A DNA stretch of 24,676 nucleotides from a virus, in IMG/VR virus record IMGVR_UViG_3300027793_000273, positions 1 to 24,676 of that record. One strand, written 5' to 3'. Shown one piece after another: positions 8,645 through 23,999 of the stretch; position 1 is the stretch's first letter, and every line of letters begins with the position of its first letter. A model generated the notes under the pieces. The model searched no databases and was not told the origin of the DNA. It saw only the letters and a list, made by a program, of their open reading frames with translations. Both the position numbers and the translations under genes were made by a program.

Positions 8645-9062
8645 TATTGTTTCCTATTAGGTTCCGCCTACAGGCCAGAAGTGATTGTTTTAAGATTTCG
8701 GCTTTGGAAGCTTCCCCGATAAGAAATTCTGCATCCTCTCTAAATAGTTGTTCTCCAGTGCTTCCTGCTCCTGAGCAGACAGAGGTGCAACTATTAACTT
8801 CTTTGATGGTAATTCTTTCGGGGCGGTTCCGCAAGCTACTAACAATGATACTATGCTTAGAATTAATAGCTTTAATTTCATTTTCTTTTTCTAGTTGAGT
8901 TGCAACAAATTCTTTTTGTAATTTTTTAAATTTAGTTTGTTGGTCTTCTAATTGTTTAATATAGGATTTTGATTGCCGATCAAATGCTGTCTTATAGCCA
9001 TAATCGTAGGATATATAACCGACAAATAAAATAAATAATAACTGTAAAATATATTTAACCAT
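8637..9062 (-). CDS. Rz: Rz-like i-spanin (inner membrane subunit)
   Basis: From the ATG at 9062, which overlaps the endolysin stop by 8 bp, the protein has 141 residues: an N-terminal membrane anchor (about 3-21, YILQLLFILFVGYISYDYG), a periplasmic coiled coil (KQLEDQQTKFKKLQKEF and on), the usual LRNRPER stretch and a C-terminal helical part. This is the type II topology of Rz spanins, which join with outer-membrane Rz1 to fuse the membranes in the last step of lysis. A longer in-frame start at 9164 would put 34 residues before the anchor and lie inside the endolysin gene; it is rejected. The Rz1 gene is nested entirely in another frame. A Gram-negative host follows from this pair. Confidence 0.85.
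   Translation of the reverse strand: MVKYILQLLFILFVGYISYDYGYKTAFDRQSKSYIKQLEDQQTKFKKLQKEFVATQLEKENEIKAINSKHSIIVSSLRNRPERITIKEVNSCTSVCSGAGSTGEQLFREDAEFLIGEASKAEILKQSLLACRRNLIGNNND
8690..8881 (-). CDS. Rz1: Rz1-like o-spanin lipoprotein nested in Rz
   Basis: This is a 63-aa protein read in a different frame wholly inside Rz. Residues 1-17 form a lipoprotein signal: two lysines, a hydrophobic core (LLILSIVSL) and a lipobox LVAC with Cys17 as the lipidation site. The mature part is about 47 residues and contains several prolines (21, 25, 33, 59, 61), as is usual for o-spanins, and it ends basic. It would be anchored in the outer membrane and bind the Rz periplasmic domain through its C-terminus. 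The ribosome site is weak (AGAAAAAGAAA), as often for embedded Rz1. The lipobox at the right distance and the position make this call firm despite the small size. Confidence 0.85.
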   Translation of the reverse strand: MKLKLLILSIVSLLVACGTAPKELPSKKLIVAPLSAQEQEALENNYLERMQNFLSGKLPKPKS

Positions 9063-21206: not shown

Positions 21207-21344
21207 TTATTGCCCTCGGATGGGCAGTGTTCGTCCTGACTTTTCTCCGATTTTATCTTTCGGATTAAGTAGTTTGTTAGGTTGTTGTGGTTTAAGAAGC
21301 TTTTTAAAGCCTTCTTTTTCTTCACCACGTAATGGTACGTTCAT
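21207..21344 (-). CDS. Small basic ORF overlapping the terminase stop
   Basis: This is a 45-aa protein with ATGA overlap to the terminase stop: MNVPLRGEEKEGFKKLLKP ... KSGRTLPIRGQ. It is Lys/Pro-rich, probably disordered, with no known motif. A competing frame (21125-21328, 67 codons, GTG start) covers the same bases but has no ribosome site or overlap, so the ATG frame is preferred. It could be a small packaging or portal-related cofactor. It is also possible that neither is translated and the stretch is a structured leader. Confidence 0.45.
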   Translation of the reverse strand: MNVPLRGEEKEGFKKLLKPQQPNKLLNPKDKIGEKSGRTLPIRGQ

Positions 21345-22981
21345 AACCATGTTGTGTTTTCCTGTTGGAATGATCCCATGCGTTGTGTAAAGGGAACATT
21401 ATTAGTTGTTAGTTTATCACCGTGAGTACGGATTACTTCGAGTACAATAGCCAATGCAATAACTGTATCGTCATTATGACCCACAATAGCATTAGTTTTG
21501 CCATTGTCATCAGCAACATAGTTCATCAATTCACCTATAACAGTTCTTGATGGAATCCATACTTCATCATTCTCGATAGCGCTCTTTAAGAATCCGATAA
21601 TAGCTGGCTTAGATGCAGAAGTTGTTCTCCAACCTACTCGGCTACCTTCTTCTTTAGATACGTTAGCAATCTTTGTCTGATAGTACAAGTTAACGTAGTT
21701 CATCTGCGTTAGTCTGTTGAGTGTAGCAATACCCATAGAGTTAGACTCAACAGCAAGGAGAGCATTGTTGTAGTATCTGCCAAGGTAGAATAGTACATCA
21801 CCAAACTTAGATGGATCAATGGTATTGTTACGATATACAGCACAGATCTCCTTGTCCTTGTTCATCACAATAGCAGAAGAATAGTCCTTACCTACACCTA
21901 AGGCAACGTCTCCTGCAATAGCAAAAGAGTCTTCAAAGGTAGGATACTTGTAAATCTCGATAGAACCCCTTGGGGCATCCTCCATCATCTGAGACTCAAA
22001 GTTAAATTCCATCTGTTTGAGAATAGGTTGAGGAATTAAACCCATTAACTTTTCAATGTTAAATACGTTGGCCCCTGATACAACAAAAGCTTCATCAGGA
22101 GTAGCAGGGTACTCTTGTCTGAACTTATCTTGACCACCCTCGGCAATCTTTAATCTTCTCCAGTATAACTGGTCATTATCAAGATTAAACCGGGTAACCA
22201 ATACTTCTTCCTCTTCTGTTCTTTCAAAAGATTCAGGAGCAGTCCTACGGTACTCGGGCATAAGGAACCATGGTACGAAGATAGGAATATACTCGTTCTC
22301 TCCGGCTACAGCACCCTTCCACAATCTGTGAAACTCATTACCCACACCATTAGCAGTACTCTCAAGAATAACCTCGGTACCTGGTGCCTGTGAAATACCC
22401 TGAAACATACCAGCTAAAATCTTGGCATCATGAGTCCAGAAGGCTACCTCAGACAAGTGAGCAATAGTAGGAGTTGTACCTCTACCAGCCTCTGGAGAAC
22501 CAGCCGTATACAGCCTATACCCTGAATCATTATGTTCAAACATAATCTCTTTGGCATTAGACTTCTTAAACTTAGGTCTGAAATCCTCAGACATATTCGA
22601 GATAGTATTTCTACTCATAGAAAACAAAGAGTCAGAAGTAGCTGTATCATGAGCCATAACTACTGATTTGTTGTAAGCATTAAAGTAACTCTTCCAAAAT
22701 ACTCTGGCTGTAGTAAAGGTGCTTAGTCCCATCTGTCGAGCCTTAAGAATAATAGCTCTTACTCTACCAGTAGTTCTTAACTGTTCTTCAATCTTTTCAT
22801 TGACAATTCTTTGTGCCTCATTAAACACAAAAGGTTGAAACCCTTGAGAACTGTCTTTAGGTAAAATCTTAATCTGTTCTTTTGCGAATAACTCAAAGTT
22901 ACCTTTATATTCAGCTAACTTCTTTCGCTTATTTAACTCGCGTAGCGCGTCAAGTTTTTGTTTATTTGATATACTTGCCAT
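21341..22981 (-). CDS. terL: Terminase large subunit (ATPase and nuclease)
   Basis: This is a 546-aa protein. ATPase part: adenine-binding region FQPFVFNEAQ (48-57), Walker A-like KARQMGLST (80-88), Walker B region IAHLSEVAFW with Glu178 (173-182), and coupling motif LESTANG (206-212). Nuclease part, RNase H fold: Asp358 in IAGDVALG, Asp366, Glu412 in AVESN and Asp504/Asp505 in GHNDDTVIAL. It packages DNA into the prohead through the portal and cuts the concatemer. It is complete and of normal length. It is the first gene of the leftward late operon, starting just left of the control region; the ribosome site is modest (GGGG). No small terminase gene is seen next to it. Confidence 0.95.
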   Translation of the reverse strand: MASISNKQKLDALRELNKRKKLAEYKGNFELFAKEQIKILPKDSSQGFQPFVFNEAQRIVNEKIEEQLRTTGRVRAIILKARQMGLSTFTTARVFWKSYFNAYNKSVVMAHDTATSDSLFSMSRNTISNMSEDFRPKFKKSNAKEIMFEHNDSGYRLYTAGSPEAGRGTTPTIAHLSEVAFWTHDAKILAGMFQGISQAPGTEVILESTANGVGNEFHRLWKGAVAGENEYIPIFVPWFLMPEYRRTAPESFERTEEEEVLVTRFNLDNDQLYWRRLKIAEGGQDKFRQEYPATPDEAFVVSGANVFNIEKLMGLIPQPILKQMEFNFESQMMEDAPRGSIEIYKYPTFEDSFAIAGDVALGVGKDYSSAIVMNKDKEICAVYRNNTIDPSKFGDVLFYLGRYYNNALLAVESNSMGIATLNRLTQMNYVNLYYQTKIANVSKEEGSRVGWRTTSASKPAIIGFLKSAIENDEVWIPSRTVIGELMNYVADDNGKTNAIVGHNDDTVIALAIVLEVIRTHGDKLTTNNVPFTQRMGSFQQENTTWL

Positions 22982-23042
22982 CTGGCAGTGCCCCTTGTGT
23001 CTGTTTAATAGGAAAATATTATTCCTCTATTATGTACCGACT

Positions 23043-23071
23043 CTTTAGTAAGAATGTATACTAAAGTATAC
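23043..23071. promoter_or_regulatory. Two overlapping inverted repeats (operator-like)
   Basis: Repeat 1: CTTTAGTA (23043-23050) with TACTAAAG (23059-23066), 8-nt gap. Repeat 2: GTATACT (23056-23062), AA, AGTATAC (23065-23071). They share bases, so as RNA or cruciform only one can form at a time; as DNA, repeat 2 looks like a dimer-binding operator. Confidence 0.55.
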
Positions 23072-23082
23072 GTTTTAATAAT

Positions 23083-23104
23083 GAAATATATTGTATTATA
23101 TTTC
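23083..23104. promoter_or_regulatory. Inverted repeat GAAATATA / TATATTTC
   Basis: Perfect 8-bp arms (23083-23090, 23097-23104) with a 6-nt gap, 11 bp from the operator-like pair. It contains a TATAAT on the minus strand at 23095-23100, which could be the -10 of a late promoter for terminase, but the -35 is poor. Confidence 0.4.
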
Positions 23105-23361
23105 TTTGCGAGAAGGTACTTGGGATACTTTATTTAGGGTACCCCTAGTTTAATATTTTAGTTTAGGGATTGTAGTGTGGGTATGTGTCTTTTTGTGTGA
23201 AAGAAAGAATCAGTTGTTTATTTAGGTTAGCCCCTTTTGGTTTCGTGACCCCCCTAGTTCGCTCTGGTGGTCGCTGGCTCGCTGGTGGCGGTGCCTCTTC
23301 CCGTGTCGGCTGTGCTTGGCGCAGTGCAGTCGTCCTTCTTCTTTGCGCTATGGAGTCTGCT

Positions 23362-23517
23362 ATGTTTAACGCTCTTCTGTTTGCTCTGTTCGGTGGCATT
23401 ACAGTTTCTTGTTTGATACTAATGCTACTCTTCGGTCTGTGGCCCTTAGGTTATGTAGCTGTTTTCTCAGCTATTGTTATTGGTTGTATCTACTTTATTC
23501 ATGAGGAGGAACTCTGA
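23362..23517 (+). CDS. Small membrane protein with two hydrophobic segments
   Basis: From the ATG at 23362 (TGGAG 6 nt upstream) this is a 51-aa protein that is almost all hydrophobic: FNALLFALFGGITVSCLILMLLFGLW, a short turn with Pro, then YVAVFSAIVIGCIYF and an acidic end HEEEL. Two membrane helices with a tight turn are likely. A longer frame back to 23185 exists, but its sequence matches the GC-rich patch and lacks a ribosome site at its start. The stop overlaps the next start (TGATG). It would act in the inner membrane; small hydrophobic early phage proteins often target host functions, but the role is unknown. Confidence 0.55.
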   Translation: MFNALLFALFGGITVSCLILMLLFGLWPLGYVAVFSAIVIGCIYFIHEEEL

Positions 23518-23627
23518 TGTACTACATCTATTCAAAACGCTCTGGTCGTTTATTGTTTAAAACAACTAACAAAGAAGATCTTAGCCAATTCTTACCATCA
23601 CTAGTAGATGTACACTACTCACATTGA
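23517..23627 (+). CDS. 36-aa early ORF
   Basis: This short frame runs MYYIYSKRSGRLLFKTTNKE and on to a TGA at 23625. It has one of the best ribosome sites of the window (AGGAGG, 7 nt) and overlaps the upstream stop by one base. It is basic with aromatic residues and shows no known motif. Its strong initiation signal is the main reason to believe it. Confidence 0.55.
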   Translation: MYYIYSKRSGRLLFKTTNKEDLSQFLPSLVDVHYSH

Positions 23628-23637
23628 TGTGTGCTTG

Positions 23638-23660
23638 TAGGATATTCAATGAGTATCCTA
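23638..23660 (+). other. Stem-loop TAGGATA / TATCCTA
   Basis: Perfect 7-bp arms (23638-23644 and 23654-23660) with a 9-nt loop between two early genes. No T-run follows, so it is not an intrinsic terminator; it may be an RNA processing site or operator. A small GGAC/GTCC hairpin (23664-23676) follows at once. Confidence 0.45.
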
Positions 23661-23705
23661 TGAGGACATTTCGTCCATACAACTTGCCATTTCAAGGAGA
23701 AAATC

Positions 23706-23999
23706 ATGGCTGTAATCAAGACTGTTCCTGCTCAATACGCAACTAAAGGTGATACCACCACTGCAACATACACACAAGCAACATCTGTATTGATGGCTCT
23801 GTATATTGACAGTGAAAACAAGTACATTTATGCTGTTGATGATAAGCAAGTCATCCGTAAGATGTCTATCACTCGTGACGTTGAGTACGCACGTAAGCAA
23901 TTCCGTATTGCTAAGAAGCTTACAGGTAAAGCTGTTCGCTTTGGAGTTACCAGTGGATGGAACTCTGATGTATGGTTCAACGAAATCATTGAAGCTTAA
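23706..23999 (+). CDS. Early protein of unknown function (97 aa)
   Basis: This is a 97-aa protein with an AAGGAG ribosome site (6 nt). The N-terminus is Thr/Ala-rich (KGDTTTATYTQATSVLMALYI); the middle alternates strands and turns (YIDSENKYIYAVDDKQVIRKMSI); then comes a helix with DVEYARKQFRIAKKLTGKAV and a final strand-rich FGVTSGWNSDVWFNEIIEA. It has a folded, soluble look with mixed charge, and no motif is recognised. It is the first of three similar-sized plus-strand genes with good ribosome sites and short gaps, so they form an operon. By layout these are probably early genes acting on the host; no function is claimed. Confidence 0.65.
   Translation: MAVIKTVPAQYATKGDTTTATYTQATSVLMALYIDSENKYIYAVDDKQVIRKMSITRDVEYARKQFRIAKKLTGKAVRFGVTSGWNSDVWFNEIIEA

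Follow-up and report, generated by a model that had tools for sequence, protein, structure and literature searches.

The window, by which we mean the whole 24,676-base stretch analysed here, is a virus contig (record G000) and a fragment of an uncultured phage. The terL gene for the terminase large subunit occupies 21341 to 22981 on the minus strand. Leader comparison places the likely first rightward gene at 23362 to 23517 on the plus strand, where it would encode a 51-aa hydrophobic protein behind a GGAG ribosome site (23352 to 23355). A preliminary description had reported three perfect inverted repeats with arms of 7 or 8 bp within 62 bp, two of them sharing bases, between opposite transcription units, and all of this was found as described, the rightward unit being placed by its probable first gene.

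A search of 22982 to 23184 for perfect inverted repeats (arms of at least 7, spacer of at most 20) returned exactly three, all within 23043 to 23104. These are CTTTAGTA/TACTAAAG (23043-23050/23059-23066; arm 8, spacer 8), the palindrome GTATACT-AA-AGTATAC (23056-23062/23065-23071; arm 7, spacer 2) and GAAATATA/TATATTTC (23083-23090/23097-23104; arm 8, spacer 6), the first and third being assigned to neither strand. The first two overlap at 23056 to 23066. When the same 62 bp were dinucleotide-shuffled 2000 times, they held 0.45 such repeats on average, as against the three observed (P = 0.007), and the top 62-bp count on a 3-base grid across the 203-bp intergenic stretch gave P = 0.04; both tests are post hoc, as the spot was picked for having repeats. 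The whole window is repeat-rich, with 49 such repeats where 20 shuffles averaged 31 (sd 3.7), and no other 62-bp stretch of it has three (5-base grid).

In a nucleotide search, the terL region matched one phage record, Roseobacter phage CRP-7 (MK613349), the only cultured relative found; its TerL is 58% identical to that of the window, and the next best 32%. CRP-7 has been described as representing a new group; its RNA polymerase is less than 25% identical to those of the Autographivirinae, and the accessible part of its description does not contain the word 'promoter' (PMC6918029). The word is likewise absent from the accessible parts of a further roseophage paper, which concerns another family. 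Relatives were compared through IMG/VR, where the best 80 of 224 by TerL were kept; 72 rows had enough upstream DNA, giving 58 distinct upstream regions, window included. One record that begins inside terL (L008) was dropped, leaving 57 regions, which we sorted by control region into groups labelled A to D, group A consisting of the window, L003, L005 to L007 and L010. A search for isolates sharing the control region gave only four matches of 35 to 37 bases (E 0.4). We also sought more close relatives by the flanking pattern and rejected this route: of the 10 stretches that it returned, 5 had been found before and the other 5 showed no relationship.

On the minus strand, 23023 to 23042 carries AGTCGGTACATAATAGAGGA, the predicted promoter for the phage-encoded T7-like RNA polymerase, and a second copy of the motif, AGGCGGAACCTAATAGGAAA, lies at 8650 to 8669 on the same strand. 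The motif AGYCGGTACCTAATAGRRAA (at least 16 of 20 positions matching the consensus) recurs 8 to 9 times per genome in five relative records, against 0 to 0.4 times in shuffled sequence. When the sites of these five relatives were pooled with the two of the window, 39 of 43 were intergenic and 35 of 43 preceded an ORF on the same strand. Upstream of terL, the promoter was found in 57 of 57 regions with 13 to 17 of 17 core positions matched, the values of 13 to 14 belonging to group C. T7-like RNA polymerase (PF00940) scored above the cut-off in 12 of 12 records searched, namely 11 relatives and CRP-7, a set that does not include the window fragment.

Like the promoters of the single-subunit polymerases of T7, SP6, Syn5 and KP34, the predicted promoter is about 20 bp long and asymmetric, with an AT-rich TAATA before the starting G, and like T7-type promoters it has many intergenic copies and a PF00940 polymerase in the same genome. 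Unlike them, it would have a recognition core of its own, CGGTACC. The string GTACCTAATAG gave a literature match only on an unrelated subject, among the matches listed. By analogy with T7 promoters, we take the leftward start to be the G of TAATAG at 23027. The terL transcript would then begin with a leader (22982 to 23027, minus) bearing a short 5' hairpin at about 23010 to 23026, which is predicted in 6 of 6 group-A phages with varying sequence and in part of group B (mean z −0.79 over 57 regions). As a feature common to all phages this hairpin was rejected: group C has none, and much of group D has a weak one or none. Separately, we noticed a palindrome, GGGTACCC, at 23134 to 23148 (plus), which many relatives have at or close to this position and which resembles the GGTACC core of the phage promoter.

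Of the representatives searched, all 22 yielded one motif, at 19.6 bits against 9.3 to 10.3 in 8 shuffled sets. Its site in the window is the position of the palindrome (23056 to 23071, plus), and every other representative has a matching site; the family consensus of this 16-bp element is GTAATNTTTNGTATAC, or GTATaCnAAAtATTAC on the terL strand. The representatives were drawn from 44 phages, the 13 without a visible copy having been left out before the search, and they are related phages, whose counts are not independent events. With a scoring matrix trained on 22 of the 44 element-bearing phages, the best site per phage scored at least 9.9 in 44 of 57 and at most 0.6 in the remaining 13 (group C, L014 and L021), where the element is absent.

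The element is nearly single-copy. Its top genome match is at the terL locus in the window and in G002, G004, G005 and G009; in G001, the terL copy ranked only fifth (12.0; the best, 14.4, lies elsewhere). GTAAT/ATTAC half-sites are enriched outside the element too (17 against 7.5; 0/500 shuffles). The exact palindrome occurs nowhere else in the window. It is present in 65 stretches of viral_contigs, which we considered as further cases and rejected, as none was beside the phage promoter (best match 13/21 within 120 bases downstream).

Whether the palindrome itself is kept can be judged from the relatives. Within group A, the window and L003 have the complete 16-bp palindrome with its 7-bp arms; L010 retains two GTATAC half-sites, and L005 to L007 do not. 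Pairing across the six group-A phages amounts to 69% of cells with no pair changed on both sides, and four of the seven pairs are broken in 3 to 4 of these six closest phages. Over the 22 representatives, the inverted match between the halves of the element is 3.64 of 6 within a phage and 3.64 of 6 between phages, and the halves match as a direct repeat at 3.45 of 6; compensating inverted repeats upstream of terL, and then a pure direct repeat, were tried as rules and rejected on these values. Since the halves match no better within than between phages, what is conserved is the element, not a palindrome. Its position and core are kept in the relatives that carry it: the outer GTA...TAC is widely retained, and the central A-tract is asymmetric (17 to 21 of 22). 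This kind of conservation is expected of a protein-binding site, and the alignments partly support such a role.

The predicted −10 box of the rightward promoter is TATTAT at 23094 to 23099 (plus), with a predicted start at about 23106. The box matches TATAAT in 5 of 6 positions, and L005 to L007 have TATAAT there. Of the 22 representatives, 9 have a TATAAT that starts 20 to 24 bp to the right of the element, where 500 shuffles gave 0.22 (maximum 3), and 24 of the 44 phages have TATA at this distance, where shuffling gave 2.1 (maximum 8); the window is among the 20 of 44 without TATA at this gap. In the 44 phages, anything from 16 to 72 bases separates the element from the core of the leftward promoter. 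Because the TATA spacing is steady whereas the leftward gap is variable, the element would belong to the rightward promoter, at about −42. A gap of 20 to 24 puts its centre at −40.5 to −44.5, and at −42.5 in the window as counted from the predicted start, a position that would favour an activator or a −35 replacement. By inspection, no −35 box (TTGACA) was seen 16 to 18 bp upstream of TATTAT. A consensus sigma-70 scan gave 2 sites against 0.7 expected, one of them at 23075 to 23102 in a slightly different register; its −35 matches were of the TTAATA type only, in other registers.

This arrangement is not uniform across the clade. L012 and L013 have TATAAT at a gap of 14 instead of 20 to 24; exact TATAAT at 20 to 24 was found in none of the seven group-B phages L015, L017, L019, L020, L027, L034 and L047 nor in any group-D phage, and many group-D phages have TATAG-type boxes. 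As the element is missing from group C, L014 and L021, their early promoter would have to work without it. In L027, L034 and L007, we also observed tandem repeats of 15 to 16 bases (such as TTTTAATAGAGAGTG), which vary in number and separate the predicted early promoter from the leader box.

Gene layout was examined in the relative G001, where an identical run of 35 residues is encoded at either end of the record. Its main ORFs lie on the terL strand from about 2 to 34 kb, with long virion-type ORFs, and on the other strand from 34 to 59 and 0 to 2 kb, with genes for DNA polymerase, primase/helicase, RNA polymerase and ribonucleotide reductase. From this strand layout, we infer that a replication-type operon begins at the divergent region. 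The early ORFs of G001, 48 in number, matched 41 Pfam and 89 PHROG families; among the 25 listed from each database there was no regulator or repressor, and one PHROG annotated 'DNA binding protein'. PHROGs gave no family for four of the rightward ORFs of the window.

Downstream of the predicted early promoter, the plus-strand leader from 23188 to the ATG at 23362 is conserved across divergent groups, with length changes that break the reading frame. It starts with a conserved box, TCTTTTTGTGTGAAAGAAAGAATCA (23188 to 23212, plus); the box in the leader stretch 23188 to 23364 has the form TGTGTG...AAAGAATCA. The leader hairpin P4 (23307 to 23332, plus) is the only clearly covarying structure found near the repeat cluster, as judged from the alignment of relatives: over 22 phages, 91.2% of cells are paired and 40 cells are changed on both sides, and its score of 0.603 compares with 0.278 when shuffled (0/500) and 0.272 for the best slid version. 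A P4 model trained on these phages (37 sources) gave one match each in G001, G002 and G005, a weak one in G009 and none in G004 or CRP-7. Rfam returned nothing at threshold for 22900 to 23750, with one sub-threshold match of 18.4 bits against 208. Two further candidates were rejected. Long-range leader stems P1 to P3, one of which pairs with the ribosome site, gave the same alifold pairing in three groups, and they are nearly invariant and so show no covariation; the fold of the whole leader was not strand-specifically better than shuffles (mean z −0.74 on the plus and −1.06 on the minus strand, n = 52).

Taking into account the motif, its spacing and the gene layout, we consider it moderately probable that the locus is a divergent promoter region. 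Leftward, the T7-like RNA polymerase of the phage would start at 23027 and transcribe terL and the structural genes, presumably late; rightward, a host-type promoter with the TATA-like −10 box would start at about 23106 and drive the putative early operon. A host or phage regulator most likely would bind the element, centred at about −42 where the −35 box is missing, and would activate or, less likely, repress early transcription. The perfect palindrome and the repeat at 23043 to 23066 would be incidental results, as GTATAC is self-complementary and the stretch is AT-rich. In class II activator-dependent promoters of the CRP and FNR type, the activator site is centred near −41.5; the predicted early promoter resembles them in its TATAAT-like −10, the lack of a visible −35 and an element centre near −41 by the predicted start, but differs in that its element is not a covarying dyad.

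The preliminary description had instead read the 16-bp repeat as a repressor site, at which a dimeric repressor would shut off the early promoter or terL. We regard this as possible but rather unlikely. The operators of lambda and P22 are short dyads by divergent promoters, and the window likewise has a perfect 16-bp dyad adjoining its predicted divergent promoters; L003 and L010 carry two GTATAC half-sites, the outer GTA...TAC is widely kept, and the repeat does coincide with a conserved element. The repeat at 23083 to 23104 overlaps the predicted −10 box and is partly kept in the closest relatives, being 85% paired in the six phages, among which two of its pairs show changes on both sides. 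Unlike in lambda and P22, however, the dyad is not conserved or maintained by paired changes, its centre is asymmetric, there is about one site per genome, and the matches listed for G001 contain no repressor. Conservation of the arms in relatives held for 23083 to 23104, largely failed for the palindrome and failed for 23043 to 23066.

Returning to the activator reading, a more specific form of it, which we think doubtful, has a single conserved activator-type site that would replace the −35 box, while P4, a short way before the ribosome site of the first gene, would add another layer of control in the early mRNA leader. If true, infection would start only in cells with a particular host regulator.

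It is improbable that the three palindromes are functionless chance products of AT-rich intergenic DNA. In keeping with chance, the window is repeat-rich overall, and the repeat at 23043 to 23066 is no better paired than shuffled columns (45.8% against 49.7%), so that the mutually exclusive hairpins suggested earlier find no support; this repeat is probably a by-product of the neighbouring element. Folding of the 62 nt as single-stranded DNA is unusual in the window (z −3.6 and −4.4), but not on average in the 57 phages (mean z −0.69). Against chance, the palindrome falls exactly on the conserved element.

A replication origin seems very improbable. The primary origin of T7 is AT-rich DNA beside a phage RNA polymerase promoter, and here too an AT-rich, palindromic stretch adjoins the promoter, with an AT-rich leader on the terL side; yet the AT-rich block precedes the promoter instead of following it, and group C is without it. 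We give hardly any credence to a cruciform promoter or RNA switch with alternative hairpins, as in the hairpin-controlled virion-polymerase promoters of N4, because, despite the folding of the window, its close relatives L005, L006 and L007 reach only z −1.4, −1.3 and −0.2, the arms are not kept, the largest ORFs (1262 aa in G001, 1346 aa in the window) fall short of the N4 enzyme of about 3500 aa, and neither of the predicted transcripts, starting at 23027 (minus) and about 23106 (plus), would contain the repeats, making RNA hairpin switching unlikely.

CRP-7 shares with these phages a T7-like RNA polymerase and a similar structural gene order; its genes upstream of terL, unlike those of the window, run the same way as terL, not divergently, and it has no site of the window's phage promoter at 14 of 17 positions or better. 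Overall, the spot resembles an ordinary, though previously undescribed, phage control region, and regions of this general kind are known; its phage promoter sequence is new, and it includes a putative early-promoter element. For a phage clade that is related to CRP-7 but uncultured, this amounts to an initial map of regulation, including an early leader with structure and an early switch that is a candidate for host dependence, and a phage polymerase with its own promoter sequence may be a new enzyme for in vitro transcription. The locus also illustrates that a self-complementary half-site can mimic a palindromic operator in one genome, as relatives reveal.

Several minor observations concern the terL side. 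Group C (e.g. L023, L040, L052) has no element and a shorter control region, and its terL promoter is a variant, AGTCCCCTAATAGAGAA. The 5' hairpin of the predicted terL mRNA has a different sequence in each phage in which we noted it (window 22982 to 23027, L005, L006, L007, L010, L017, L027). GTTAGC-type hairpin inserts of related sequence occur in the terL leaders of the otherwise different L006, L016, L039, L042 and L058. In L056, L066, L069 and L077, a short GC-rich repeat of approximately GTCGCAGACACTGCTCC stands upstream of the phage promoter, or in or just after the start of terL, a placement like that of a small mobile repeat.
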